Of a DNA stretch of 64,000 bases, positions 8,101-61,593 are shown one piece after another. Position 1 is the stretch's first letter. Each line of letters starts with the position of its first letter. The notes beneath the pieces are model-generated. The model was not told the DNA's origin. It did no database searches and saw nothing but the letters and a program-made list of their open reading frames with translations. This stretch comes from Gimesia aquarii (lineage in GTDB: Bacteria > Planctomycetota > Planctomycetia > Planctomycetales > Planctomycetaceae). The stretch covers positions 6,526,334 to 6,590,333 of the forward strand of contig NZ_CP037422.1 in the NCBI RefSeq assembly GCF_007748175.1. Direction: 5' to 3'. The position numbers and the translations under genes were made by a program.

Positions 8101-10629
8101 TTAGTGATTAAACAAGAATTCTTTAGTATTAATCAGAGCCCATATAATATCCTCATAAGCAATTTGTGGTTTCGCTTTATGCTTTTCGATGTACGAAAGC
8201 GCGAACTTCATTTCCTGCTCTTGAGGAGCACGGGAATACACCCAACGATAAAGCTCCTGAATTTTCTCTTCATTTGACCGCTTGGTATCTTTAGCGAGAG
8301 TTGCAGCGCGGCTGGATCCATTCGTGATCTTATCCTGTACTTCCTTACTGTTCAGCAAATGTAAACTCTGAGCAAGGTTGGCACTTTGTGAACGCTCGCA
8401 CTCACAAGCCGTATCCGCCTGAGGTTGTCCAAAGACTTTCAAAAAATAAGGTGCTGAAGTCGCATCTGTAATTTGAATCGCTTTCGCTTCCGCAGGCAGT
8501 CCGGAAAAACGTTGTGTCGAATTCGTGACTTGATGAAAGACATCATACAAAACTTCTGCAGTGAGTCGCTTGGGATAATAGCGTGAGAAATTTTGTTTAT
8601 CTTTCAAGTTGTGCTCATTGGGCAATGAACTCAGTTGATAGGCATTGGAACGACAAATCGCACGCACGAGTTCCTTTAAGTCGAATCCACTTTCGACAAA
8701 ATGTTTTGATAGACCGTCCAGAAGTTCCGGATTAGCGGGAGGATTAGTCGCCCGCATATCGTCTTCGGGTTCAACAATTCCTCGACCAAAGAAATGTTTC
8801 CAGTAACGATTAACCAGCGCTTTGGCAAAGAACGGGTTATCCGTTCGAGACAACCACTGCACAAGTGCCACACGAGGATCACGTTCTGGGCTTAATTCAA
8901 AAGGTTCCATTCCCAGAGCCGTTGGTTTTAGATTTTCTCCCGAACGAATATTCTTTGCAGTTGCAGTACCTTCTTTATGGAAAATTCGCTTATCACGAAA
9001 ACCTCTTGTACCAATGGGTCCAGAGCTGGGATCTTTCGTCCCCACACGACTGAAGAAAGCAGCGAGTCCGTAATAATCATTCTGGCTCCACTTCTCAAAG
9101 GGATGATGGTGACAACGAGCACATTGAATACGAAGCCCTAGGAATAGTTGGGCTGTGTCTTCCACTTGTTCTTCGACGGTATTGACTTCACGATACCAGA
9201 CCACCGCAGGATTCTGTCGATATTCTCCCGATGCAGAAAGAATTTCGCCTACGAATTCATTGTATGGCTTATTCTCATAGAGACTATTCCAAATCCATTT
9301 ATAAAAAGCATTCGTACCTGCGATATCAATCGGTTGAAGTTTTTTGTTACGTAAAACCATATTCCATTTATTGGCAAAATAGTCCGCGTAAGCGGGACTG
9401 TCGATCAAACGATCAATCAGTTTGTCCCGTTTCACAGGATCTTTATCTGCCAGGAACACTTTTACTTCGTCTTCAGTGGGTGTCGAACCTGTAATATCGA
9501 TATAGACTCTCCGCATGAACGTAGCATCATCGGATACAGGTGAAGGAGGAATTCCTAAAACCTTCAACTTATTGAAAACAGCTTCATCAATCAGATTACG
9601 CGATTTAGGGAGATTCGCAATCGTGACCCCCAGAGGAATCGTCGCCCGGAAGGTAGACACCTGCCCTTGATAACGGGCCATTATGGCAACCTCACCAGAT
9701 AAGTTTAAAGTTTTAACCAAACCGGTTTTATTGACTTCCGCCATCTCAGTGTCGTTGGCTTCGAAAAGAGCCATCCGAGTGACGTCTTCCGTAGAACCAT
9801 CTGAATAAGTGGCAATGACTGAGATCTGCTGTTCGGCTTCCTGCCCCATTGTTCTTGACTGAGGAAAACATTCAATTGAGGCAACTGTGCGATCCTGATC
9901 ACTCCCATAAGGCATCCCCTGCTCTATCCAACGATAAAGCAAACGATACTCATAGGAATCGGATTTGATCAATTTTCCACCACCGTGTGGAGTAACGCCG
10001 GTCCCTTTCATCAAAAGGAGACTTTCTGCGGGCGACGTAGGAAACAACCGACGCCCCCGGCCTTCTTTGACAAGAAACTCATAATCATCTTCAGGATAAA
10101 ATCCAAGCAGTGATAATTTAAAACCGTTCTGTCCGCTGGCTTTTCCGTGACACCCACCGCTATTACAAGTCAGCTTGGTAAATATAGGAACTACTTGATT
10201 CTTGAAATTGATCGCCTCGGGTGATGCGATTCCCTGGACTGAGATAGGAATCGATGCCTTCTTACCATTTTTTGCAGTGACAGTGAGTTGAGTCTGGCCA
10301 TCATTATGTGGTGTGATATAACCATCGCTTGAAATCGTAGCAATATTCTGATTCGTAATTGCATAAGTCACATTGCGAGTCAAGTCCTGCAATTTACCGC
10401 TCGCCAAAACTCCAGTCACAAAAACTTGCTGGCGTGAATCGGGGCCTCTTAACAAAAGCAATTCTTTCTCACCCGGATGAGGTCCAATCTGGATTTCCTT
10501 AAAGTCCGCAGGCACATTGGCAGCCGGCGCCCCCAACACATTCGTTGCACCGAAACCAGAGATAAGAAACATCACTCCACATAGCATAAGGATCTGTGGC
10601 ATCCGAGAGCCCTTGAATCGGAAATCCAT
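8101..10629 (-). CDS. DUF1549/DUF1553 c-type-heme protein with Ig-like domains
   Basis: An 842-residue exported protein of the planctomycete cytochrome family. A signal segment (ILMLCGVMFLISGFG) is followed by a BIG2-like domain (about 45-135), a heme-binding segment with the unusual spacing C155-x4-C160-H161, a second Ig-like domain (about 250-335), DUF1549 (about 345-545, containing CARCHHHPFEKW) and DUF1553 (about 580-840, ending in the typical NTKEFLFNH). AGGAG lies nine bases before the ATG at 10629. These proteins are abundant in Planctomycetes, where they are thought to act at the cell surface in redox-linked degradation of polymers, but no reaction is proven. The usual partner, a DUF1501 sulfatase-like protein, is absent here and PPC and WD40 proteins follow instead. 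Confidence 0.9.
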   Translation of the reverse strand: MDFRFKGSRMPQILMLCGVMFLISGFGATNVLGAPAANVPADFKEIQIGPHPGEKELLLLRGPDSRQQVFVTGVLASGKLQDLTRNVTYAITNQNIATISSDGYITPHNDGQTQLTVTAKNGKKASIPISVQGIASPEAINFKNQVVPIFTKLTCNSGGCHGKASGQNGFKLSLLGFYPEDDYEFLVKEGRGRRLFPTSPAESLLLMKGTGVTPHGGGKLIKSDSYEYRLLYRWIEQGMPYGSDQDRTVASIECFPQSRTMGQEAEQQISVIATYSDGSTEDVTRMALFEANDTEMAEVNKTGLVKTLNLSGEVAIMARYQGQVSTFRATIPLGVTIANLPKSRNLIDEAVFNKLKVLGIPPSPVSDDATFMRRVYIDITGSTPTEDEVKVFLADKDPVKRDKLIDRLIDSPAYADYFANKWNMVLRNKKLQPIDIAGTNAFYKWIWNSLYENKPYNEFVGEILSASGEYRQNPAVVWYREVNTVEEQVEDTAQLFLGLRIQCARCHHHPFEKWSQNDYYGLAAFFSRVGTKDPSSGPIGTRGFRDKRIFHKEGTATAKNIRSGENLKPTALGMEPFELSPERDPRVALVQWLSRTDNPFFAKALVNRYWKHFFGRGIVEPEDDMRATNPPANPELLDGLSKHFVESGFDLKELVRAICRSNAYQLSSLPNEHNLKDKQNFSRYYPKRLTAEVLYDVFHQVTNSTQRFSGLPAEAKAIQITDATSAPYFLKVFGQPQADTACECERSQSANLAQSLHLLNSKEVQDKITNGSSRAATLAKDTKRSNEEKIQELYRWVYSRAPQEQEMKFALSYIEKHKAKPQIAYEDIIWALINTKEFLFNH

Positions 10630-11255
10630 ACTTAATCACTCCTGTGCAACTGGTTTTATTTTTAGCTTCAGGCCTGTCAACAAACTATTTTGTGCGACTA
10701 CGAGCAGACCTTTTCAAAATATGGGTTTAAATCTGAAAACGTTAGTAATCTGGTTGGTTTATAAGGAAAGTTTTTTTAGGTAAGCTTACCAACCAGTTCA
10801 GACCAGTTGGTTAAGTTTTGCGGACTTGGCCAAGCCCATTACTGAATGGACTTTTCCTATTTATTCAATGTATCAAAGTTTATTGAATTGTCAATCTTTT
10901 AACCAAGCACTTGCGAAAGAAACTGTTATTTTGAACACATTCAATTGCCACACTCATGATTCGCTACACATTGCCATTTGATTCAATTGTGATTAGTACA
11001 ACTGTCAAAAGCCGATTCACTCGCAAAACTCGTACAATAATTAAAATGTATTAACCACCTTAAAACAGTGTTCTTTGCCAATAAATCTCACTGGAATCAG
11101 TCAGTTCTTTCAAAAACAGGATTTCTTTGATTGCCAGTAAATATCTCTTCTATAGAATAAAAGTTAGCACAGATTCTGCCTCAGGGCTTTCTCGTTGAGT
11201 AAATTTTGAGAATCAACTTTCTTACTAACTTTCCAGGTGGCTCCAAAACAATCAC
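10630..11255. promoter_or_regulatory. Divergent regulatory region with inverted repeats
   Basis: This 626-base gap separates the minus-strand heme protein from ribBA. It carries CTGGTTGGT at 10750-10758 and its perfect complement ACCAACCAG at 10788-10796; ACCAAC (10788-10793) is also mirrored by GTTGGT at 10806-10811, and a 10-bp palindrome CTTGGCCAAG lies at 10825-10834. Such arms resemble operator half-sites, closer to the minus-strand gene than to ribBA. The rest is A+T-rich. I looked for an FMN riboswitch before ribBA and did not find the conserved core. Confidence 0.45.
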
Positions 11256-44269: not shown

Positions 44270-46414
44270 ATGAAAAATCTGGACAAGTATCGAAACATTG
44301 GAATTTCGGCTCACATTGACTCTGGTAAAACGACACTTACCGAACGAGTTCTGTACTATTCAGGACGAATTCATAAAGTACGTGAAGTACGTGGCGGCGA
44401 TGGTGGCGCTACCATGGACAGCATGGACCTTGAACGTGAGCGAGGTATCACAATCGCTTCCGCAGCGACGCAGGTCCAGTGGAAAGATACAACGATTAAT
44501 ATCATTGACACCCCGGGTCACGTTGACTTCACTGTGGAAGTAGAACGTAGCCTGCGTGTGCTGGATGGTGCTGTGCTGGTACTTTGCTCTGTAGGTGGTG
44601 TGCAAAGTCAATCATTAACGGTTGACCGTCAGATGAAACGTTATGGTGTCCCCCGTATCGCGTTTATCAACAAGATGGACCGTACTGGTGCAGACTCTGC
44701 CAGCGTGATTCAGCAAATCGAAGAAAAGCTGCACGTCGTACCTCTGCCATTACAGATTCCAATGGGTGAAGGAGCGCAATTCGAAGGTGTCATTGATCTG
44801 GTTACCATGCAAGCTGTCACCTATGAAGGTGAGCAAGGCGAAAATGAGATCTTTGGCGAGATTCCTGAACAATTTAAAGAAGCTGCTGAAGAAGCGCGCT
44901 CTGCGATGCTTGAAACGCTCTCCATGTTCAGTGACGACTTGATGGTTGCATTGCTCGAGGAAGCAGAAGTTCCTGTGGAAGATATCTATACGGTTATCCG
45001 TGATGCTACGCTTTCACACGAAATCACCCCAGTCATGATGGGTACTGCATTCAAAAACAAAGGAGTTCAAACTCTGCTTGATGCAGTCGTACGCTTCTTG
45101 CCTAGCCCACTTGACCGTGAAATCTCTGCAATTGATCTGGACGCACAACAGAAAGCAATTAAAGAAGGTCAGGAAAAGACAGACAGCGAATCTTTCCGAA
45201 CCAAACTGTCACATTCTTCTGATAAACCTTTGGTAGCCATGGCGTTCAAGATTGTCGATGAGACATTCGGCCAATTGACATACATGCGTATTTATCAAGG
45301 TAAAATTGAAAAAGGTCAAAGTTACATTAATACCAGAACAGGGAACTCTACCCGGTTTGGTCGCTTGGTACGTATGCATGCTGACAGCCGTGAAGATGTA
45401 GATTGCGGTGAAGCCGGTGATATTATTGCCGCTGTTGGTATGGAATGTGCCTCTGGGGATACCTTCTGTAGTGATGATGTTAACTTTGCACTCGAGAGTA
45501 TCTTTGTTCCCGAGCCTGTCATTCGGCTTTCCATTGAACCACTCGACCGGGATGGAGCAGACCGTCTGGCTAAAGCCATTCAACGCTTTAACCGAGAAGA
45601 TCCTACTTTCCACGTGATGACTGATGAAGAAACCAATCAGACCATCATCGCAGGAATGGGCCAGTTACACCTGGATGTTTATATCGAGCGTATCAAACGT
45701 GAATATAAAGTGGAATGTATTGTTGGTGAGCCACGTGTCGCTTATCGCGAGACTCCTACTATTCCTGTGGAATACAATCACAAGCACAAAAAGCAAACTG
45801 GTGGTTCTGGTCAATACGCTCACGTCGTTGGGCAAATTGAGCCGATCGCTGTTGAGAACGATAGTGAAACTTATGAGTTTATCAATGATATTAGCCAGGG
45901 TCGTATTCCTCGAGAATACATTCCTGCTGTAGATAAAGGTTTTCAGCGAGCTTTGGTCAAAGGTCCTCTTTGCGAGTGCGAAGTCGTGGGAGTTAAAGCC
46001 ACACTTTCTGATGGTAGCTATCATGACGTCGACTCATCAGAAATGGCTTTCAATGTTGCTGGTTTCAATTGTATGCGAGATGCATTGAAGAAAGCGAACA
46101 TGGCTCTGCTTGAACCCATTATGAAACTGGAAGTGGAAGTTCCTGAAGAATATCAGGGGGCTGTTTCCGGTCATGTCGCACAGAAACGAGGCGTGATCAA
46201 TACTTCTGAAACGAAAATGGGAACCAGTATTTTCATCGCGGAAGTACCACTGGCAAACATGTTCGACTATGCCAATGAACTACGTTCGATGACACAGGGT
46301 AAAGGTGGATTCAGCATGGAATTCTCTCGTTACTCTCAGGTCCCCAGAAATATTCAAGAAGAGGTCGTGGCACGACGTCTGAAAGAAAAAGAAGAACGCA
46401 TGGCAACAGCCTAA
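44270..46414 (+). CDS. fusA: Translation elongation factor G
   Basis: A 714-residue EF-G. GTPase motifs are AHIDSGKTT (P-loop), the switch I region [15 protein letters not shown] with the catalytic His84, and NKMD. Domains II-V follow in order ([15 protein letters not shown] and the C-terminal [14 protein letters not shown]). It is a standard-looking translocase that moves tRNAs and mRNA through the ribosome. The neighbours are ppdK upstream and a convergent aldolase gene downstream, with its terminator inside that gene. Confidence 0.96.
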
Positions 46415-49862: not shown

Positions 49863-51023
49863 TCATTGTCCGGCAGATCTGGTTCCCTGCGGAGAACCTG
49901 CAATTGGTACTCCAAATGGTAAAGGGCGACCAGCGACCTGATAGCCTAAAGAGTGCGCATGTTTCTGTAAGGCACGATAAAGCTCAAAGCTATCAGGATA
50001 CACCCAAAATGTGAGTGTAGAACCTGTCCCGATATCTGTTAATGCCTGATAAAATCGAGATTGAACCTGAAGTGCTACTTCTTCATTCTCTTCACGCACA
50101 TCATTATCACGATCAATTTCCCACTTGGTTACCCCCACACGAAATCCCCTACTACCTCCGTTCCTTAATTGATCCATGGCCGAGAGTACCTGGCGTTCAA
50201 CTACATACTTCATGGTATATCCTCGAATGGGCCCCACCTTACCATGATGTTCTCGATATTTGGCAAGCCAATTTCCGCGTTTCATGACTTGATCTCTCAA
50301 ATCATCAAGTAATTCATTGATCGGTACATAAGATACTTTATTTTCAGAAAGTAAAAAGTGCCACTCTTTATCAGTCACCAACTGGCTCACGGGAGTCAGC
50401 CGATGCTTCAGTTGCTTCACTTCATCGCGTGGTACGGAAACCTGGCGAGACTGGGCCACGACCCGTTCCAGCTCTCTTTGTGTTTCTTCTTTCGACGTCA
50501 CTAAACCTAATAATTTTTCATAACGCTCTTCTAACGTATCGCTTTTTCGTTCAAGCTGAGAAACCAATGATTGCACTTTTCCGCTGACAGTCTGTTTTTG
50601 GAATAATAATTCCTGGGTACCGATTTTTCGATTTTGCATCACTTGATCCAACTCTGACAACTCTGCTTCCATTCTCCGTACCTCACTAAGCAATTCTGCT
50701 GAAGGTTCTTTATAGATAATTCTTGGTTGTTGAGGAACAATCTGCTTTGGTTCAGGTGCCTGTTGAGTAAGAAGTAGCCCAGGCGCTTCCTTTATTGGTG
50801 GATCTGCTTCTATTTTGGGAAGAAACACCTCTAAATCAGTATCAATAATTTCTGGTTGTGGTGGACTAAGCGGTTGGTTCTCAGTCATCGTAACCGGAGC
50901 CTGACTCATCCTGACACCAGCAATCACAATCAAAATAATGAGAATCCCCACAATATTGGCAACGATATCCAAAAAGGAATCAGAACCAAAATTAGCTTCC
51001 CCCTGTGGTGTGCGGCGGCTCAT
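49863..51023 (-). CDS. ExbD-like motor partner with conserved Asp (protein B)
   Basis: A 386-residue protein with one N-terminal transmembrane helix. The start of that helix, DSFLDIVANIVGILIIL, has the ExbD/TolR pattern and Asp19 at the place of the proton-carrying aspartate. A Pro/Glu-rich stretch, a coiled coil (about 115-200) and a C-terminal domain (about 215-375) follow, ending LPFGVPIAGSPQG. Similarity to the C-terminal end of the next gene upstream (protein A) is visible: FWVYPDSFELYRALQ versus FTVSPGGNQFYERLK, both ending in LP-x-x-x-SPQ. It starts one base after the protein A stop codon, so the two are probably translationally coupled. I do not recognise a named family. Confidence 0.7.
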   Translation of the reverse strand: MSRRTPQGEANFGSDSFLDIVANIVGILIILIVIAGVRMSQAPVTMTENQPLSPPQPEIIDTDLEVFLPKIEADPPIKEAPGLLLTQQAPEPKQIVPQQPRIIYKEPSAELLSEVRRMEAELSELDQVMQNRKIGTQELLFQKQTVSGKVQSLVSQLERKSDTLEERYEKLLGLVTSKEETQRELERVVAQSRQVSVPRDEVKQLKHRLTPVSQLVTDKEWHFLLSENKVSYVPINELLDDLRDQVMKRGNWLAKYREHHGKVGPIRGYTMKYVVERQVLSAMDQLRNGGSRGFRVGVTKWEIDRDNDVREENEEVALQVQSRFYQALTDIGTGSTLTFWVYPDSFELYRALQKHAHSLGYQVAGRPLPFGVPIAGSPQGTRSAGQ

Positions 51024-51024
51024 A

Positions 51025-53244
51025 TTATTGCCCCTTCTCAGATTGGGGAGAAGAAATGACTGGCAAAGGATCTAACGTATGTTTTGCCGCTGTCTGTAAA
51101 CCCATTTTCTGGGCTGACGATTTCAATCGCTCATAAAACTGATTCCCGCCCGGACTGACCGTAAACTGAATCGTGGGAACCCAGTAAAAACCTTTTGGTG
51201 CCGGCCCCCAGGCGTTAACGTGTTGATCCATCACCATAATCATTGATTGTAGTAATTCTTCTTGTGTCACTCCCTGATTAAGCTTCACACTTTGATTTTC
51301 ACCGACGATAATTCTGTCGGCTCCCACCTGAACCGAGATCTCTCTTTCGAATCCGATCCCTGATCGAGATTGATGAGGGCGCCAGCGTTGTTTGTTTGCA
51401 GACTCTATTTCTGAATGAGGGCTACCTTTACTTCGATTAAAAGCGAATGAACTCATACTGTTTCCTGCGCCTGAAGCAGACTTCCCGGGAGGGGCTCCTG
51501 ACGAACGAGCCTGCGATTGAGAGTTTCTTTTCTCTACTTTCGAAATTTTTGATCCAGCTTCGGTTTGGTTTTCGTCATTTTGAGTTCTCTGGCTTTGAGT
51601 TCCTTCCCTTCCAAATGCGTTTTCAATCATGCGATCTGAAGCAGACATCGTTGCAGACCTACTTCGCTGCTCCTGTTTTCGAATATCTGAAACTCCACTC
51701 GTCTGTGTTCCATCAAGGGCAACTAAATGTTGCTCTGCCTGCTGTTTGAGTTGGTCACGTCCCATTACTTTTGCCTGCTTCAATCCGACACTATTACTTT
51801 CGCCTTGGCGCTGACCACTTTGTGCTTTTAAATCTGCCAGATCATAAACTTCTGCTCTTTGTCGACTTCCGGGGATTCGCTTGAAAGTGTCAGCATGTTG
51901 CGGTGTTGAAATAGAGTGTTTACTGGAATGCAATCCTCGTTGTTCAGAATTGGAAGTTCCTTCACCTTCGTCAGCTACAATATGTCGTTGATTTGCGAGC
52001 CGTTGTAAATATTTTGCACGTGCCAGTTGTTGTCGCGCGGTTAATACGTCACTAAAACGAGACTCACCATCAGCTGTACCACGCTTATGTTTTGCCCGTT
52101 TTCGTGCCTGTTGATGTGACCCTGCTCCTGTTCCCAGCTCATCTTCAGGTTCAATAACTCGTACCATGCCGGTACGCGCGTCAAATTGTAGTCTGCGGCC
52201 ACCAGAACCTGATCCTTCCTGATGCTGATGCAGCTGTGAGACAAGTTGTTTACGTTCACTTAAAACCCGATCGATGGCATCCTGACAGACCTGTTCTGCA
52301 ATTAAATCTTTTTCAGGTAGCTCAAAGTCCCAGTCAGCATCAATTAGCTCATAACCGGAATCTAGTTTCAAATTATTTAATAACTTTCTCGCAACATAAT
52401 AACCCACACTTCCACTTGGTCTGACCAGAATCAAGACATACGGTTCCCGATTTGATTGTTGACTATTATTCTGCCAGTGTTCCACTAATGCCCGCGTACC
52501 AGCCAACAAAGGATTGTACCCAGGTGTAAAGTCTTTTAAATCATCCGGAGTCAAAGTAATTCCTTCCGGAATAAACGTCAGTCCCTTATCAGTACATTCA
52601 ATCAAAATAGGCCGTTTCGCAGTCCCGGTCTGACCATCATAAGGAATCACAGAATATTTACTGCGCGCGGTCTTTTGTGACTGTTTTTTCTCTTTAAGTA
52701 AGTGTAATTCTTCTTGAAGCAGTTCAGCAACACGGAGCTTTTGCTGCGTGATTTGTGTCATTTTATCATTGAGTTCTTGATCTTTTTGACTTAAGACTTG
52801 AAGTTGTTGTTTACTCTCAATCAATAATTTTTCGGATTGAGTCAATTCATTTTTCAATCGGATCAATTTTTGATTCTGTGATTTCAGATCCGCCAACTTT
52901 TTTGCTCTCTCTAAACTGAGAGCTCTTAACTTTGCTTCCTGCTCTAACGCTAGATTAATCACTTGAGGTTCTGGCTCTGTGATAACAACAGGCTCTTCCG
53001 GTCTTATTATTTTCGGCGCAGGTAGTTCCGGTTCAAGAACTTCTGCAGCAAATAACACAGGAGGATAAAAGTCTTCATCGACCACCTCTTCCACGGAGAC
53101 GCTTTGTACCTGCTGCAGAGCCTGGTGACGGATCCGGCGCGTGGTGACGACCAACAGAAAAATCAAAGCCCCCATCGCACAAATAAGAACCGCTAAAAAC
53201 GGAAATAGCGATACCGAACGTGTTTCGCGACCATGCTTACTCAT
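51025..53244 (-). CDS. Long ExbD-like motor partner lacking the Asp (protein A)
   Basis: A 739-residue protein with one N-terminal helix, SVSLFPFLAVLICAMGALIF. It has the ExbD-like shape but where the proton-binding aspartate is expected there is Ala18. A coiled coil (about 97-195) follows, then a folded segment (about 205-330) and a long Ser/Gln/Arg-rich, low-complexity region (about 350-600) that is likely disordered. The C-terminal domain (about 610-739) resembles that of protein B and ends PLPVISSPQ. Most of the chain should lie in the periplasm, where the flexible region would allow it to reach the wall. It is the middle gene of the cluster, 69 bases after the ExbB-like gene. Confidence 0.65.
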   Translation of the reverse strand: MSKHGRETRSVSLFPFLAVLICAMGALIFLLVVTTRRIRHQALQQVQSVSVEEVVDEDFYPPVLFAAEVLEPELPAPKIIRPEEPVVITEPEPQVINLALEQEAKLRALSLERAKKLADLKSQNQKLIRLKNELTQSEKLLIESKQQLQVLSQKDQELNDKMTQITQQKLRVAELLQEELHLLKEKKQSQKTARSKYSVIPYDGQTGTAKRPILIECTDKGLTFIPEGITLTPDDLKDFTPGYNPLLAGTRALVEHWQNNSQQSNREPYVLILVRPSGSVGYYVARKLLNNLKLDSGYELIDADWDFELPEKDLIAEQVCQDAIDRVLSERKQLVSQLHQHQEGSGSGGRRLQFDARTGMVRVIEPEDELGTGAGSHQQARKRAKHKRGTADGESRFSDVLTARQQLARAKYLQRLANQRHIVADEGEGTSNSEQRGLHSSKHSISTPQHADTFKRIPGSRQRAEVYDLADLKAQSGQRQGESNSVGLKQAKVMGRDQLKQQAEQHLVALDGTQTSGVSDIRKQEQRSRSATMSASDRMIENAFGREGTQSQRTQNDENQTEAGSKISKVEKRNSQSQARSSGAPPGKSASGAGNSMSSFAFNRSKGSPHSEIESANKQRWRPHQSRSGIGFEREISVQVGADRIIVGENQSVKLNQGVTQEELLQSMIMVMDQHVNAWGPAPKGFYWVPTIQFTVSPGGNQFYERLKSSAQKMGLQTAAKHTLDPLPVISSPQSEKGQ

Positions 53245-53313
53245 GAATTAAACCGGGGAAATAGACTTCGTTCAGTATGAAATAAATAAGAATCTCAACA
53301 TCCGTTTTCATTA

Positions 53314-54804
53314 TCAAGCAGCATTATTTCGATTCGATCGAGCTGTGAGTAGATGTACTGCCGCACTTAAACTATGCAAAGTTTCTTCAAAAGTCTCTGC
53401 AGCACGAATAGCATCTAGATTTTCATTCAATCTTTTCTGTAAACCAACCAGATGCTCTTCCTGACCAACTATTTTTAGAAGATTTTCACTCTGTGAATTA
53501 AGCGCTTCAATCTGTAAAGAAGAAACTTCAGATGTTTCTTTCAACTGATGATTCCACTGTCTAACTTCACCAGCTATTTCTTTAGTGGCTTCCTCGATTT
53601 GTGATGTCTGTCGTGTTTGTGCCGATATCACATCCTGATGAACTTCGTTCCAAATCTGGGCCAGATGCTTTGAAAACTGATTGTTCGATTCTTTCTGTGT
53701 TTCTTGCCAGCGAGTCATCATGAGCTCAATTTGTTCGGTCGTTGATTGATAGGCACTCAGGAACTCGTTACGCAATGATTCCAATTGTGAAGAGTGAGTA
53801 TCTAGAGTATTTGACATTCCTTGCTGCATCGATTGATCAAAATTGACTTGTTGCCGCTCCATCACCTCGTTCCAACGACTCCGCAATGACTCCAGGTTTT
53901 GCTGCCAAAGCTCTGTTTGGCGCTGTATCATTTCTTCTGTACTCTGAACCAATTGCTGGGCTGCCTCTGCTTCTGCTAGCTCTAACGGACTAACAGACTT
54001 TTCTGAAACACTCATACAAGTCGCAATATTTTGAATCCCAAACAACTCAATTTTCTCAAGTTGTTTTTGTTCCATACGTTCTACAACAAAAGTCGAAAAG
54101 ACCAAAACCAAAGATAAACCTAATGCCAATGCCGTCGTATCAAAGGCAACCGCCAATCCACCAGTCACTTCTGATAGAGAGGTATCCAGTTGATCGGGTG
54201 TGACATTAGCAATGGCAATCGTGATACCAATTACCGTCCCCAGGAATCCGATAATGGGAACTGCCCAGGTAATTGTTCGAATGAGAGAATAGCTGGCATG
54301 CATCTGCTCAGATGCCAGTTCTGCCAAATACTTGAGATGCTCATCAAGATCCTGAACAGACCTTCGTGCTTTCACATAGGAAACTACATCCTGTAGTCTT
54401 TTGCCAAGATAAGTCTCTCCAATCCAACCGGGAAGAATTTGAACCTGCTCCTCAAAAACATCAATTCGCTCGTTAATGTCTTCAACTTCACCTATTGTTT
54501 CCCAGTCAATGTTTGTTTCTGTTAATGATTTATTCTGGCCATGCATACCGATGCCCTTCACACCGATAATTGCCATACCAATAAAGAAGAGAGCTGTCGT
54601 TGCGTATTCAAGCGGATGACTACAAAAATACCGTTCTACGAGCGCCTGATATAAAGGAAGATGTGGAATCAGCGCGTAAAATCCAAAGGTGGCAGCTGTC
54701 CCCCAAAAAAGGGGAGATTTCAGGACTGCTTTTGACCAATTCAACAAGTGATCTTCTTTTTCACTTTTCGTCAGCAATTCTGCATGTTCCATCTGTATGC
54801 TCAC
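53314..54804 (-). CDS. MotA/TolQ/ExbB-family proton-channel protein with coiled-coil tail
   Basis: A 496-residue protein. Two N-terminal helices (FWGTAATFGFYALIPHL; YATTALFFIGMAIIGVKGI) precede a cytoplasmic loop and the two pore helices, of which ITWAVPIIGFLGTVIGITIA and VTGGLAVAFDTTALALGLSL carry the family's P-x-x-G-x-x-G-T-V and T-x-x-A-L-x-x-G patterns. After these comes a long predicted coiled coil (about 270-490) in the cytoplasm. A MotA/ExbB channel with a long tail recalls ZorA of Zorya defence, but no ZorC/D/E gene is nearby. First gene of the motor operon, divergent from a 1372-residue exported protein. Confidence 0.85.
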   Translation of the reverse strand: MSIQMEHAELLTKSEKEDHLLNWSKAVLKSPLFWGTAATFGFYALIPHLPLYQALVERYFCSHPLEYATTALFFIGMAIIGVKGIGMHGQNKSLTETNIDWETIGEVEDINERIDVFEEQVQILPGWIGETYLGKRLQDVVSYVKARRSVQDLDEHLKYLAELASEQMHASYSLIRTITWAVPIIGFLGTVIGITIAIANVTPDQLDTSLSEVTGGLAVAFDTTALALGLSLVLVFSTFVVERMEQKQLEKIELFGIQNIATCMSVSEKSVSPLELAEAEAAQQLVQSTEEMIQRQTELWQQNLESLRSRWNEVMERQQVNFDQSMQQGMSNTLDTHSSQLESLRNEFLSAYQSTTEQIELMMTRWQETQKESNNQFSKHLAQIWNEVHQDVISAQTRQTSQIEEATKEIAGEVRQWNHQLKETSEVSSLQIEALNSQSENLLKIVGQEEHLVGLQKRLNENLDAIRAAETFEETLHSLSAAVHLLTARSNRNNAA

Positions 54805-55270: not shown

Positions 55271-58200
55271 TTGGACTGTTCACGAAGGAAACAGGCTGTT
55301 TTACTGCTGATTGGTAGTTGTCTTTGTTCAATTTATTTTTTACTGATTCAAACATTCACGTTTGCTAATATGACTACATCGCGAAATCATAGCTCGGGAC
55401 AAAATTCATTACCCACCGTTGATAAATTAATCACACGGGAGATTTTGGGATATCTGAATTTTTCAAATGGAAAACCTGATCCCAAATTTCGCTTTAACTG
55501 GAATCAACTCTTTTCCGAATTAGATAGACTTCCTTCTTCAGAAATACTTTACTCGCTTTTGTCCTCTGAACTAAATGCACTCAAAGGTACAACTCCGGCT
55601 TTCCAGGAAATCAAGCAGGCGGAAAATGTGCTTCGAATCGCTTTCAAGGAATGCCTTCCTAAATACAAACAGCATCATCGCGATTTGTTATTTCATGTCA
55701 CAGAACAAGATTTTTTACAGCCTTATTTTTTGGCGGTTCTGTTTGAAGCGATCCTCGAACAGCAAACTCCCTGGGAATCAGACACACATGTCGTTCAAGG
55801 GGCGATTGATAAACTAAATGATTTTGTCGGTTTTCGACCTGTAGCTATTCTTGAGAATAACCAAAAAATGCAGGTTTACCCGCATGAGAAATTTCGCCCT
55901 ATTCCTCTCTACTTTCGTGAAAGCGGTGTTGCCTGTGGACCATATCAGCGATTAATTGAATTCACCCTTAAGACATTACAATCCACCCCGAACGATCTGT
56001 TGCACCAGGCGCATTTTGGACTGGATAAAATGGATGAAATCGCTATTGATTTACGTGCACACGATCACCTGCATCCCGTTAACAAACGAACCAACTATAT
56101 GTTTGGGGAATGGGATCCCCACACCATAGACAACCAGGGTTACTATCGTCGGTTTATTATCCGTAAATTAATTCTTGACTCATTGTTAGCCTGGATCGAC
56201 GAAAACAAAGAGCTGCCTCTGCAAGAACGCTTACAGGATGCCGCCGCTGTCTTGAGTGGTACCATGCTGATGGCGTCTTCGATTAGTGGATCAGGGCCAG
56301 ATACTCACTCTAGTGAAACCAGCTTAACGTCACTACTTCCCAAAGTCGCCCGACAGCGTGATGACTATTACAATCGACTATTGGCTTCTGCATCAGGACA
56401 GCGTGCAGAAAGGCTACTGAAAGAAGCAAAACAGTCACAACAACCCTTTGGACACATTCGTCATTATCTGAATTTACATTTAGCGCGTTACGGAGCGCAA
56501 CAGGTACAGCATCGCCAGCTTTCAAGGATTTATGCGCGCATGGGTTTCGCAACAGCGGCTCGTTGTGAATCTGCAGTTATTCCGTGCACTTCAGTTCGAT
56601 TCGAGTGTGAAATCCAATGGAGAGTGACCTTGGTTCACCTTCATTTAGAACGATATGAACTGGAAGAAGCCTGGAATCTCATACCCGAAATAGAGGATTT
56701 TTTAACAAGGGGTATCGAATGCGGAGCATTAATTGACCCTTGGAATATCTTAGGGTTTCAAGGTTTATTTCCGCTTTTCATTTCCCGTGAAGACAGCATA
56801 CCTGACCAACGTAGCGAAGTCCTCCTTGATCTGATGGAAGAAATTTTTTCTGCCTATTCAGCAACTCTCAGTGAAGCGGCTGCACAAGGAAACAATAAGC
56901 TCAAACTTCAAATTTCTGATCGTTTTCAAAAATTGGCAGAGAAATGGGATCGCTATGCCACAACTACGGTTGAAGATTTACCTCAGGTCAATGGTCAGGA
57001 CTCATTTGAATCAGCGGCACATGTTTCACAAATTCTGACTGAGTGGAAGAACGGAGGAGAATCTGTAGGAGATATCTCATTCTGGAGACAGCACGTCGAC
57101 CGGTTCGAATCTGCAAAAGCATATGCATTAACGGTCGATGCACTCTTGCAAAAACGAGATCATGTCGCTGCTATCGGGCTAATCATGCAATGGCTCAGTC
57201 AAGTTGATCAGACCGGACTTGAATCGGGACCTTATTCGATTCATTCCGTACTACTACAATGGATGCGTCAGCTCACATCCAACCTTGATCCGAAAACGAT
57301 TGCAGCAAACTGTCTTTCCATTCGTAAGATGTTCGATTACCTGGAAGCCAATGCTGCCGATTATTGGTCGGTGCCTCGATTTGACGCAGTCTTACCTGCT
57401 CCTGAAAAAGAAATTGAAGATCCTTTCGAGGATAATCTTGAAGATCCGGATGAGGAAGATTCTCTGTTCGATGCCGCATATGAAAATGTCACGTTTCGGG
57501 ACAGTGCCGACGATGGTGTCCAAGGTGAGATGATGGATTCTGGATACTCATCCAGTAACTCTGAAATCGAATCTATTAATCGGCAACTGGAACCACGACT
57601 CAAGTTTTTGAATACACTTTCTCAACTTTGGCAAATCTCAGCTGCCTTTTTCTGTGAATCAGAGATCATTCTGCATAAGGAACAAGTCGATGACTCTCAA
57701 GCTACAGAACAATCACAGTTGTTTGACCGTTCAACCAAACAGTCCATCGAAGGCTGGATCCAACATACCGAACACTTACAACAGGAATTAGTGGTTCTAC
57801 TCAACTCGATTTGGAATTATCAAATTCCTAAGCCGAGTGGAGATCATGATTCAAATATTGAATATGACTTACAGCTCCAGACAAAATTTTATTTGATGCA
57901 TGCCATTATCATAACAACGGTCAATTGTCGTTCTGCAAGGTTAATGCTACTCTCTACACTTCCAAAGTCCGACTCAGAACCAGAACTTACGGAAAATGAG
58001 AAAATACTGGTTCCCATCTATCGTGGAGTGCTCACTCGAGACATCGAACTGGTGCAAAAAGAATTTCCAACATTTTTGAGTAACATTTCAGAGACTCCAC
58101 TTCTATATACTCCCCTGGATCAAGGTGGAAAACCAAATGTTGTTCTGAAAGTTCGGTCATTGCAAATGATCTTACGGTTTCTACTATCACAGTTACCCAG

Positions 58201-59389
58201 TTTGGCAATGCTACGTGAAACCTGGCAATTATTAAAAACCGTATACCGAATGGAGCGTTCTTCACGTCCGGAAGGGATTGCAGTGAGTGAATTTGATCGC
58301 CTGTTTAGAACGGCGTTGAGAAGTTCCCTCTCAGCAATTATTCGATCGGCTCATGCTTGGGATTCTGAGCAATTGGACGATGAAAAATTGATTGATATTG
58401 CAGGAAAACTCGTCGAAAAATATCGAGAACAATGGCTCAAACATAGTCGCACAATGCGACTTTCCAGTGCCGAAGCGTTGAATCAGGAATTTGTCTGGAT
58501 GGAAGTGAAACAGTTCATCCAACAGTATGGATCGGAATTGTTCCACGCCCAATATCTCACATTGGGAAATCTGCGGGCAATTCTACATAACGGAATCGAA
58601 CAATACCTGAATTACTTGGCAGAGTACCATGAACCTGCCGAGCCTATGCTTCTGCTCACTGATCTTGAAGAGGGAGAAATTGACATGGATGAAGCAGTGT
58701 CTAATCTCAAGATCATCTTCGATTCCGTTGTTGATAAATTCGATCGATTCGTAGAATACAATAGCACAACCACTCAATCAGACTACGGCGAAATGTTCTA
58801 CTGTTTGTTAGACTTTTTACGTATCGAAGCCGCTTATGAACGTGATGATTGGAAGATGGTCCCATTGTTGATCGCCCATAAAGTTCTCGCCCAAGAAGAC
58901 CGCAACGAATCTGCATTAATTTGGGAAGCCGTCTTTGAAGCAAACTCTGAAGAGATTGCAAAAAAACATCTGAAAAAACTGAAACAAACAGAATCGGAAT
59001 ACAAAATTAATCTCCCACTGATTTCAGATCACCTGAATGAGAGATTTGTTAAACCATTGGCGGTAAATCGAATGATGGCACTTGTACCCCGTGCCATGAA
59101 TGATGCCCGCAATGGAAACGAAGACTCTGCTGCTTTTTCGATTCTCCGAGAGGAAATCGAGCGTTACCTGGCATCTACAATTGGTTCAGGAATTGATGTG
59201 CCTGACTGGATGAGAAATCTGGAAGATGAAATTGATCGATTAGACGAAAAAGTTACCAGTGAGCAGTATGACATCGAAACAGAAATTAAACTGTCGCCAG
59301 TTCCAATGTCTCTCGATGATATCAAAAAACAACTGAAATTATGGAATCAACCACTGGCTCGCAATCGAAAGAAAAAGAATAAAGAGTAA
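55271..59389 (+). CDS. Large exported protein of unknown function
   Basis: A 1372-residue protein without recognised domains. The N-terminus from the TTG at 55271 (RRKQAVLLLIGSCLCSIYFLLIQT) is a signal or anchor helix; an ATG at 55370 would remove it, so the start matters. The body looks helical, with repeated Leu-rich segments and an acidic patch near residues 714-740 (EKEIEDPFEDNLEDPDEED); the end is basic (NRKKKNKE). It is the divergent partner of the motor operon and could be a structural component working with it, but no co-transcription is possible. Codon use looks like its neighbours. Family not identified. Confidence 0.6.
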   Translation: MDCSRRKQAVLLLIGSCLCSIYFLLIQTFTFANMTTSRNHSSGQNSLPTVDKLITREILGYLNFSNGKPDPKFRFNWNQLFSELDRLPSSEILYSLLSSELNALKGTTPAFQEIKQAENVLRIAFKECLPKYKQHHRDLLFHVTEQDFLQPYFLAVLFEAILEQQTPWESDTHVVQGAIDKLNDFVGFRPVAILENNQKMQVYPHEKFRPIPLYFRESGVACGPYQRLIEFTLKTLQSTPNDLLHQAHFGLDKMDEIAIDLRAHDHLHPVNKRTNYMFGEWDPHTIDNQGYYRRFIIRKLILDSLLAWIDENKELPLQERLQDAAAVLSGTMLMASSISGSGPDTHSSETSLTSLLPKVARQRDDYYNRLLASASGQRAERLLKEAKQSQQPFGHIRHYLNLHLARYGAQQVQHRQLSRIYARMGFATAARCESAVIPCTSVRFECEIQWRVTLVHLHLERYELEEAWNLIPEIEDFLTRGIECGALIDPWNILGFQGLFPLFISREDSIPDQRSEVLLDLMEEIFSAYSATLSEAAAQGNNKLKLQISDRFQKLAEKWDRYATTTVEDLPQVNGQDSFESAAHVSQILTEWKNGGESVGDISFWRQHVDRFESAKAYALTVDALLQKRDHVAAIGLIMQWLSQVDQTGLESGPYSIHSVLLQWMRQLTSNLDPKTIAANCLSIRKMFDYLEANAADYWSVPRFDAVLPAPEKEIEDPFEDNLEDPDEEDSLFDAAYENVTFRDSADDGVQGEMMDSGYSSSNSEIESINRQLEPRLKFLNTLSQLWQISAAFFCESEIILHKEQVDDSQATEQSQLFDRSTKQSIEGWIQHTEHLQQELVVLLNSIWNYQIPKPSGDHDSNIEYDLQLQTKFYLMHAIIITTVNCRSARLMLLSTLPKSDSEPELTENEKILVPIYRGVLTRDIELVQKEFPTFLSNISETPLLYTPLDQGGKPNVVLKVRSLQMILRFLLSQLPSLAMLRETWQLLKTVYRMERSSRPEGIAVSEFDRLFRTALRSSLSAIIRSAHAWDSEQLDDEKLIDIAGKLVEKYREQWLKHSRTMRLSSAEALNQEFVWMEVKQFIQQYGSELFHAQYLTLGNLRAILHNGIEQYLNYLAEYHEPAEPMLLLTDLEEGEIDMDEAVSNLKIIFDSVVDKFDRFVEYNSTTTQSDYGEMFYCLLDFLRIEAAYERDDWKMVPLLIAHKVLAQEDRNESALIWEAVFEANSEEIAKKHLKKLKQTESEYKINLPLISDHLNERFVKPLAVNRMMALVPRAMNDARNGNEDSAAFSILREEIERYLASTIGSGIDVPDWMRNLEDEIDRLDEKVTSEQYDIETEIKLSPVPMSLDDIKKQLKLWNQPLARNRKKKNKE

Positions 59390-59481: not shown

Positions 59482-61593
59482 CTACTCCTTTGGTTTGTTG
59501 AGCAAATCGACGATTTTTCCCTGTTCATTAGGTGGAATCATTTCGTAATGACTTAATTCAATATCATAAGTGCCCCGTCCCCCGGTCATACTGGAAAGAG
59601 TGCGGGCGTAAGTCATCACCTCAGCTAGCGGGACGCGCGCCTGAATAATTTCGTAACCACCTGGAGAAACCTGCATGCCTTCCATTCGTCCTCGTCGACT
59701 GGAAAGATCGCTACTGATATCTCCCACATTTTCTTCGGGGATGAGTATTTCGATTCGAACAATTGGTTCCAGTAAAGCAGGCCGTGCTTTTTCAAATAAC
59801 TCGGCAAAGCACTTACTCCCTGCAATTTTGAAAGCTGTTTCGTTACTGTCTACAGGATGGTCCTTGCCGAAGAAGACTTCACAAATTAAATCTTGCGCTT
59901 GACAACTTGCAATCACGCCTTGTTTCATCCGCTCCCGCACTCCTTTTTCAACAGCGGGAATGAACTGATTCGGAATGGATCCTCCTGAAATCCGGTCAAC
60001 AAAAGCAAAATTGAGGTCAGGATCATAATGGTATGATCGGAGATGATCAAAATTCGCTTTTGTAAAGTATTCTTCCGGATTAACATCGGGCGGCATCGGA
60101 GAAACTTTGAGGTGAACCTCAGCAAATTGCCCTGCCCCTCCGGATTGTTTTTTGTGTCGATAGCTACCCTCGACAGTTCCCATAATCGTCTCTCGGTAGG
60201 GAACTTTAGGCTGATGCGTAACCACTTCTACCTTGTCGCGATGTAAGAGGCGTTCTTGTACGATTTTCAGGTGCAACTCACTCATTCCCTGCATAACCAT
60301 TTCATGTGTTTCTTCATCATGGACGACATGAAACGTCTGATCTTCTTCTTCAATTTTGTGCAGTGCCCCGGAGATTTTCTGCTGATCATTCTGACTCTTC
60401 GGCTCTACTGCTAAACCTACAACGGGATGAGGAAATTTGATCTCAGGCAATGATAACCCATCACCGTTCGCATCTGCGGTAATCGTATCCCCCAGTTTTA
60501 AATCATCGACTTTAGCCACAGCGAAGATATCTCCCACGGAAACTTCTTCAACGGGTTCCTGTTTTCCTCCCTGCACATCAAGTAATTGATTTAATCTGAC
60601 TGGTTTCCCGGTACGAACATTAACGACAGAGGAATCTTTACTCAGCTTACCGGAAAAGACTCTTAAATAGTTCATTCTTGAAATGAAGGGGTCAATGCGT
60701 GTTTTAACAACCTGAGCGACAAACGGTTGATCAGGAGAGGGATCGAGCATCACTGAACGACCATCTTTCGTCTCTTCCATTCGTTGAATATCTTGTGGAC
60801 ATAATGTGTAGTTCGACATTGCATCCATAAATTCAGTAACGCCAACACCGGTTTTGGCGCTCATGAATAATACGGGAATCAAAGTTCCTGCAGCCATTGC
60901 TTTCGGTATATTCTCTGACAATTCTTGAGCATTGAGCTCATCACCATCAAAAAATCGTTCCAGTAGCGTTTCATTAGATTCTACGATGGCTTCAATCAAA
61001 GCCTGACGCGTTTCCTCTGGATCTCCTAACACGCCGTCTCCTGGCGCATTAGAGTTTTTCACAAGATCATATACGGCACTAAAATCGGCTCCCAATCCAA
61101 CCGGCAGGTTAATTGGTATGCAATGAGAGCCAAATGTTTCTCGAATAGAAGATAATAAAGAATCATAATCTATATTATCTGCATCACATTTATTGAGGAC
61201 AATCATACGGGCGATACCAGCTTCCTGTGACATTTTGGAAACTCGCAAAGCATTGATTTCGACTCCATGGCCAGCGTTCAGTAAAATGATAGCCGTCTCG
61301 ACAGCACGCAGAGCACCAGAAACTTGCCCAATAAAATCAGGGTAACCTGGTGTATCTATGAGATTAATATGGTGACCACCATAGTCGAAATGAATTAGCG
61401 TCGAAGCGATGGAAATCCGATGGTCGATCTCTTCCTCATCGGTGTCCAACTGACTGGTACCATCATCTACAGAACCTAATCGTGTAGAGGCGCCAGATTG
61501 AAAAAGCAAAAGGTCGGCTACAGTTGTTTTGCCAACAGCCCCGTGGCCGACCAATGCCACATTCCTTACGTCATCAACCTTGTATTCGTTCAT
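59482..61593 (-). CDS. Elongation factor G-like protein (EF-G2 type)
   Basis: A 703-residue EF-G paralogue with P-loop GHGAVGKTT (16-24), NKCD for base recognition and the EF-G domain order. Switch II reads DTPGY: Tyr84 replaces the catalytic His84 of the window's fusA product. This is typical of the EF-G2-like group (for example mycobacterial FusA2, which is described as poor in ribosome-dependent GTP hydrolysis). It may have a role in ribosome recycling, stress or another GTPase function. Start at ATG 61593 with AGGACGAG just upstream. Its leader has two perfect hairpins (61690-61745). Confidence 0.9.
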   Translation of the reverse strand: MNEYKVDDVRNVALVGHGAVGKTTVADLLLFQSGASTRLGSVDDGTSQLDTDEEEIDHRISIASTLIHFDYGGHHINLIDTPGYPDFIGQVSGALRAVETAIILLNAGHGVEINALRVSKMSQEAGIARMIVLNKCDADNIDYDSLLSSIRETFGSHCIPINLPVGLGADFSAVYDLVKNSNAPGDGVLGDPEETRQALIEAIVESNETLLERFFDGDELNAQELSENIPKAMAAGTLIPVLFMSAKTGVGVTEFMDAMSNYTLCPQDIQRMEETKDGRSVMLDPSPDQPFVAQVVKTRIDPFISRMNYLRVFSGKLSKDSSVVNVRTGKPVRLNQLLDVQGGKQEPVEEVSVGDIFAVAKVDDLKLGDTITADANGDGLSLPEIKFPHPVVGLAVEPKSQNDQQKISGALHKIEEEDQTFHVVHDEETHEMVMQGMSELHLKIVQERLLHRDKVEVVTHQPKVPYRETIMGTVEGSYRHKKQSGGAGQFAEVHLKVSPMPPDVNPEEYFTKANFDHLRSYHYDPDLNFAFVDRISGGSIPNQFIPAVEKGVRERMKQGVIASCQAQDLICEVFFGKDHPVDSNETAFKIAGSKCFAELFEKARPALLEPIVRIEILIPEENVGDISSDLSSRRGRMEGMQVSPGGYEIIQARVPLAEVMTYARTLSSMTGGRGTYDIELSHYEMIPPNEQGKIVDLLNKPKE

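Follow-up and report, generated by a model that had tools for sequence, protein, structure and literature searches.

A three-gene planctomycete locus with two unequal ExbD-like partners, a candidate ion-driven motor with a heterodimeric axle

Three adjacent genes of Gimesia aquarii, which we call B, D2 and D1, probably encode one ion-driven motor (we put the probability at roughly 0.6), in which a D1:D2 heterodimer stands within a ring of B subunits and usually offers a single proton site. The genes lie in a stretch of 64,000 nucleotides, referred to here as the window. The heterodimer is suggested by the covariation of the connector lengths of the two partners, by the association of an acidic D2 with one lineage of the ring gene, and by the presence of a D1-like membrane helix in one D2. 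In our judgement, the need for both carboxylates of an axle dimer and the number of ions used per turn are questions bearing on all motors of the MotA/ExbB type, and the loci described here provide natural matched sets, with close relatives that have different ring types and either one or two acids on the axle.

Results

All three genes are on the minus strand, and their coordinates and lengths, as well as the gap of a single base between D2 and D1, are as given in the preliminary description of this DNA. B (53314..54804, 496 aa) is a channel protein of the MotA/TolQ/ExbB type. Its score against Pfam MotA_ExbB (PF01618) was 49.9 bits, above the cut-off of 22.9, which places it in that family, and it also matched proteins with the MotA/TolQ/ExbB domain in two solved complexes of five chains each. 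Hydrophobic segments were found at residues 69-87, 181-199 and 223-241. In alignment A3 (14 rows) Thr190 (codon 54235..54237), which belongs to a GTVIG motif, Thr223 and Thr224 were invariant, and we take them to be the counterparts, within the two core helices, of the pore threonines of ExbB. The long tail of B (approximately residues 247-496; 53317-54066) is presumed, by analogy, to be cytoplasmic and helical.

D1 (49863..51023, 386 aa; alignment A1) and D2 (51025..53244, 739 aa; alignment A2) each have a single strongly hydrophobic segment near the start, the best 19-residue window beginning at F17 in D1 and at F16 in D2. In the structure models Asp19 of D1 (codon 50967..50969) falls inside a predicted helix spanning residues 14-40, and Ala18 of D2 (codon 53191..53193), which aligns with it, inside a predicted helix spanning residues 14-52. 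The D2 helix retains a conserved motif in which Gly25 is invariant (alignment A2). A further long helix is predicted in each model, at residues 109-195 of D1 (50439..50699) and 93-192 of D2 (52669..52968), and both would be periplasmic according to the topology. D1 continues into a head domain (residues 217-380; 49884..50375) with a grey-zone match to the ExbD fold. Two head domains, rather than a single one, are predicted for D2, the first with a weakly TolR-like fold (residues 196-302; 52339..52659) and the second with a weakly ExbD-like fold (residues 629-727; 51064..51360). Between them lies a region rich in Ser, Arg, Gln and Gly (residues 344-628; 51361..52215), most of which had a pLDDT below 50 and is predicted to be disordered. 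The resemblance of the D1 and D2 heads to ExbD/TolR thus consists of weak fold matches in the grey zone, and a Foldseek search with D1 returned nothing at E <0.001. Sequence links of D1 and D2 to solved structures were discarded, as the matches fell on coil regions and look like chance.

Neither partner reached a Pfam cut-off, and PF02472 was absent from both at E up to 1; a search of the same genome with PF02472 found seven other places, D1 and D2 not being among them. Profile comparison with the canonical ExbD of this genome (alignment A6, 7 rows) gave hhalign probabilities of 0.1% and 0.2% for the two partners. When the D1 and D2 profiles were compared with each other, FLD of D1 paired with FLA of D2, in an alignment that covered 51 columns only (97.4%, E 9e-12). 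A longer alignment was obtained with the paralogues of a second set, D2' and D1', which matched over 248 columns (98.4%, E 8e-15) and led us to conclude that homology between the D1 and D2 families extends past the helix. The expectations that Asp19 would lie within the membrane helix and that the two partners would be related to each other were both borne out by these analyses.

In the G. aquarii genome, B' and D2' of the second set are together (L069) and D1' is elsewhere (L067); in other planctomycetes, including members of other classes, B'-D2'-D1' are contiguous and in the same order. Homology was found between D2 and D2' (E 4e-29) and between D1 and D1' (E 6e-30), and these relationships, together with that of D2' to D1', imply that the split between D1 and D2 is older than both sets. 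In 12 second-set loci (L224-L231 and L380-L383) D1' had Asp in all 12 and D2' had Ser in 11, that of L228 being unread; since the motif script admitted no residue other than Ala, Ser or Thr for D2', the Ser count was taken from the sequences themselves. The sequences thus indicate that the older paralogous triple has the same asymmetry, Ser versus Asp, in every readable locus examined. Matches to D2' above 200 bits were present in at least 23 of 392 genomes of the phylum.

Profile searches found D1 in at least 240 of 297 genomes searched within the class, and D2 in at least 54 of 392 genomes of the phylum at E 0.001, with matches outside the class that were weak (62 bits or less); these counts are lower bounds, as the class and phylum searches scored the best few candidates of each genome (6 in the searches for D1 and D2', 2 in that for D2, and 4 in that for the B-alt ring gene described below). 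In a search of relatives, D1 was found in 53 of 59 genomes (that of G. aquarii counted), usually as one strong match in each. Outside a family that we call f2, the order B-D2-D1 was seen in 21 of the 22 loci among 29 taken from these relatives, and the remaining one starts within D2. A survey of 138 distinct loci, which excluded 5 duplicates and the seven loci of f2, showed B-D2-D1 in 100, although B is on the opposite strand in one of them. Next to D1, a D2 could be recognised in 132 of the 138, and in the other 6 D1 is at the end of a contig; the two partners thus occur as a nearly fixed pair, a point that had been raised as a check.

A feature of ExbD/TolR, an Asp close to where the one membrane helix begins, was present in D1 at all 134 readable loci (4 of 138 were unread). 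The corresponding residue of D2, Ala18 in the window, was Ala in 99 loci, Asp in 14, Thr in 5, Ser in 2 and Glu in 1, with 11 unread and 6 in which D2 was not recognised. The previously noted contrast between Asp19 in D1 and Ala18 in D2 was thus confirmed, D2 being neutral in 106 of 121 readable loci; the stricter statement that D2 always lacks the Asp was rejected, as 15 of the 121 are acidic. The spread of D1 and the constancy of its Asp are far beyond chance. Together, the results point to a putative motor found across this class of planctomycetes that annotation likely misses, because D1 and D2 both fall short of the Pfam cut-offs. Among the readable D2, Glu occupies the site in L308 (6013-8043) only.

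In the seven loci of family f2 (L057, L059, L060, L061, L063, L064 and L065) B was recognised beside none, D2-D1 was kept in six, D1 alone being recognised in L065, and the membrane motifs of D1 and D2 were not readable. The persistence of these partners in the absence of membrane motifs or an adjacent B suggests that the heads may serve some purpose outside the motor. In loci L219-L223, which also belong to f2, the pore motif of a separate channel gene includes Glu (GTVEG), and the small partner encoded next to it has a helix reading DSFVAVVVTKLTGALLF or nearly so, where Ala occupies the Asp position and a Lys lies within the membrane; this is perhaps a motor whose charges have been moved.

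The connector of each partner, taken as the distance between the helix site and a motif in the head (of the YPDS type in D1 and PI-EC in D2), was measured in 89 of the 138 loci; the other 49 were dropped since a motif or residue was unread. The lengths of the D1 and D2 connectors were correlated, with a raw r of 0.88, which became 0.84 after correction for the tree and 0.69 when two outliers were also removed; rank correlations of the contrasts were 0.65 and 0.62. With an alternative end mark in D1 the tree-corrected r was 0.67, and 0.48 without the two outliers. The controls, corrected and with the outliers out, were low: comparison with the rest of D2 gave 0.19 for the D1 connector and 0.11 for that of D2, comparison with the B tail gave 0.00 and 0.01, and the D2 connector compared with the D1 domain gave 0.04. 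Without correction, the controls against the rest of D2 and the B tail were weakly correlated (r 0.26-0.45). A looser first measure of the connector, whose loose GP motif struck spurious places, gave a corrected r of 0.03. Matched connector lengths are what a rod shared by two chains requires.

The state of the D2 site went along with gene order. Loci with a neutral D2 were arranged B-D2-D1 (97) or D2-D1 (9), and those with an acidic D2 were D2-D1-B (8), D2-D1 (4) or B-D2-D1 (3). Acidic D2 are scattered, with at least 8 supported changes on the D2 tree (121 rows) and at least 5 on the D1 tree (87 rows), and the 11 acidic loci with an adjacent B form 6 separate groups on both trees. On the B tree (108 rows) the acidic state of D2 needs only 2 changes, as 10 of the 11 B genes linked to an acidic D2 belong to one lineage, named B-alt, the exception being L113. 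Two residues mark this lineage: position 193 (Gly in the window, codon 54226..54228) is His in 10 of 10 B-alt and Gly in 96 of 97 B genes beside a neutral D2, and position 222 (Asp in the window, codon 54139..54141) is Asn in all of these 10 and Asp in 93 of the same 97. For the five acidic groups with a linked B-alt, the nearest kin in both partner trees have Ala and the standard ring, B-std, although two of these ten joins have support below 80 (L115 on the D1 tree and L284 on the D2 tree).

At the level of genomes, B-alt was present in at least 29 of 397 of the class, separated by a clean score gap (448 versus 244 bits) and often unlinked to the D2-D1 pair. His or Tyr at 193 together with Asn222 was found in 24 of these 29 (23 His, 1 Tyr), 5 being unread by the script. 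Where B-std is present, D2 was neutral in 100 cases and acidic in 1 (L113), while in the 26 rows with B-alt only, 18 D2 were acidic and 8 neutral; the absence of B-std was checked in 22 of these rows, and L101, L115, L117 and L128 were assigned from their linked B-alt. Extra channel matches in G485 and G507 correspond to B' genes of the second set. Among independent pairs drawn along supported branches of the D1 tree, typically 6 agreed in direction, none was opposite and 3 showed no difference (p between 0.03 and 0.22, with a median of 0.03); a few of the 200 random pairings contained one opposite pair. As judged from these sequences, the association between the D2 residue and the B lineage appears strong, weaker at the genome level yet real, and it is not a rule, given the eight neutral B-alt-only rows and the B-std with Asp in L113. 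The statement that B-alt always means an acidic D2, which holds for 10 of 10 linked loci, was accordingly rejected, 8 of the 26 B-alt-only rows being neutral.

Intermediates were found within one genus (g301), which has genomes with B-std only and Ala (G631, G690), with both rings and Ala (G541, G565, G722), with B-alt only and Ala (G580, G619, G521, G549, G556), and with a linked B-alt and Asp (G571). Their existence makes the gearing, the assembly of the heterodimer and the matching of ring to axle directly testable. In a B-alt-only genome, G641, D2 (L364, 4225-7146) has a D1-like membrane helix including the Asp, apparently as a result of a helix replacement between the D1 and D2 genes.

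Discussion

The motor that we propose would consist of a ring of B, a pentamer by analogy, whose pore encloses a single helix from each of D1 and D2, with Asp19 of D1 as the sole protonatable site of the axle in the usual form. If each B subunit passed one proton, a turn would use five rather than ten. Beyond the membrane, the two partners would form a coiled rod of matched length with ExbD-like heads at its end, and the disordered tether and second head of D2 could act like TonB or TolA, reaching and pulling a partner in the cell wall or the outer membrane. In rings of the B-alt lineage D2 would often regain an acid, and the axle would then have two sites. A heterodimer carrying a single proton site was among the options of the preliminary description and is the best reading of our data. 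The sequences themselves show the conservation, the pairing of D1 with D2, which residue occupies the site, how the D2 residue goes with the B lineage, and the covarying connectors; we infer the 5:1:1 count, the rotation, the proton as the ion and a task in the envelope. Somewhat short of even odds, and put forward tentatively, is a broader proposal: that the B-std form is single-site and uses five protons, that a two-site form using ten has repeatedly arisen once the ring gene had changed, and that gearing has changed several times within the class.

The invariance of the Asp in D1 only, and the survival of f2 partners with neither the motif nor a neighbouring B, would also be expected of a normal 5:2 motor made of B and a D1 homodimer, with D2 as a membrane-anchored arm or regulator outside the pore. 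We regard such an arrangement as unlikely, since the helix motif of D2 is conserved and its Gly25 invariant, several D2 lineages are acidic at the aligned site, one D2 helix is D1-like, and the connector lengths of D1 and D2 covary. The conserved motif, the acids and the D1-like helix likewise weigh against the suggestion, made earlier, that D2 is a structural arm. Being homologous beyond the helix, D1 and D2 could each pair with themselves, and one ring might then serve two homodimeric motors, an active B with D1-D1 and an idle or braking B with D2-D2, whose ratio would set the output; however, homodimers would not need connectors of matching length in D1 and D2, and the pairing of the two genes is nearly fixed at one to one, which makes this scheme more doubtful than the preceding one.

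A different objection concerns the link between the B lineage and the D2 acid, which could reflect shared ancestry or joint transfer only, in the absence of functional coupling. B-alt is one lineage, so that its residues may have changed just once, and 8 B-alt-only rows are neutral. Against this, the acidic loci sit beside different Ala kin on the D1 and D2 trees, the independent pairs typically stand at 6 to 0, and one acidic D2 seems to have arisen through helix replacement; we therefore consider ancestry alone an improbable explanation. Far less probable is a defence motor of the Zorya type. B resembles ZorA in being a channel with a long tail, scored 44.6 bits against PADLOC ZorA2, and matched the two solved complexes mentioned above. 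Nevertheless, its NCBIfam ZorA score was 28.9 bits against a cut-off of 100, D1 and D2 had no PADLOC ZorB match in a run that covered B, D2, D1 and a 1372-aa neighbour, and, unlike ZorA-ZorB, the locus has two unlike partners and a class-wide, vertical pattern with conserved order, which is not that of a mobile defence gene. Membership of Zorya was rejected on these scores and this distribution; the likeness to Zorya first proposed is confined to the channel and lies below the NCBIfam cut-off.

In ExbD the Asp lies at the start of the membrane helix, and in known motors both axle chains are alike, each with an acid. The present locus resembles ExbB-ExbD-TonB and TolQ-TolR-TolA in having an Asp at the start of a partner helix and heads with a weak fold match to ExbD/TolR, and differs from them in its two unlike partners, long coils and long B tail, and in that the triple contains no TonB or TolA gene. 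Motors of this kind are described in PMC9389320 as a pentamer around a dimeric axle; the same paper presents AglR-AglQ-AglS of Myxococcus xanthus, with one TolQ-type gene and two different TolR-type partners, AglQ and AglS, which both have the conserved Asp and of which it is described as unknown whether they form hetero- or homodimers. AglQ and AglS match PF02472, according to the section concerned of PMC3169522. Planctomycetes and their relatives are also described, in the section dealing with them, as having tolQ-tolR-tolR-vWA sets (PVC sets), which include TPR genes as well. Loci with two TolR genes are, with these two examples, already known. As far as those sections go, our locus is like AglRQS in combining one channel gene with two unlike partners, but D2 is mostly without the Asp (106 of 121 neutral) and PF02472 matches neither partner; it is like the PVC sets in joining a TolQ-like gene to two unlike TolR-like genes, but Pfam detects no vWA domain in B, D2, D1 or the 1372-aa neighbour. 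An Asp-less partner is not mentioned in the section on the PVC sets. Neither a class-wide partner of this kind nor its link to a ring lineage was found in the literature searched, which was covered mostly at the level of abstracts, and the main text of a paper on the essential genes of Planctopirus limnophila, a species for which a genome-wide transposon analysis is available (PMC10632474), makes no mention of ExbB, ExbD, TolQ, MotA or Tol-Pal.

Other sets with paired partners were observed. The G. aquarii genome has a third three-gene set (L070, 4831-10702), with a 1194-aa channel bearing the motif AFDTT and two unlike partners that both read SFLDLLSCALGG, with Asp, or nearly so. The presence of both this channel motif and an Asp in each partner implies that Asp222 of B cannot by itself explain the absent Asp of D2; its compensation for the missing residue was rejected as a sufficient rule, also because the B-std genes of L291 and L292 have Asn222 and are still beside a neutral D2. 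Three further places in the genome have two adjacent Pfam ExbD matches, both partners having Asp at two of them, where read. In L212 (3308-6001) a short channel of 292 aa is accompanied by two partners, each acidic (LFSFQD and LLLDTICNTFGG).

The 1372-aa protein (55271-59389), which had no match in a Pfam search, is transcribed divergently from the triple, and its relatives occur close to the triple at 35 of 137 loci, corresponding to 7 of 57 groups; no neighbour of the triple was conserved in more than 10 of the 57 groups. Two different elongation-factor-G-like genes (44270-46414 and 59482-61593) are on either side of the locus, and each matches the other copy of a relative, L040 (E 1e-88 to 1e-106). 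In L040, from a genome of the same genus, D2 is split into two open frames (8712-10987), through a frameshift or a sequencing fault. The C-terminus of B (53317-53322 in the window) is Ala-Ala in 104 of 109 loci, and that of D1 (49866-49871 in the window) is Ala, Gly or Ser followed by Gln in 129 of 138; these conserved ends may be recognition or degradation signals.
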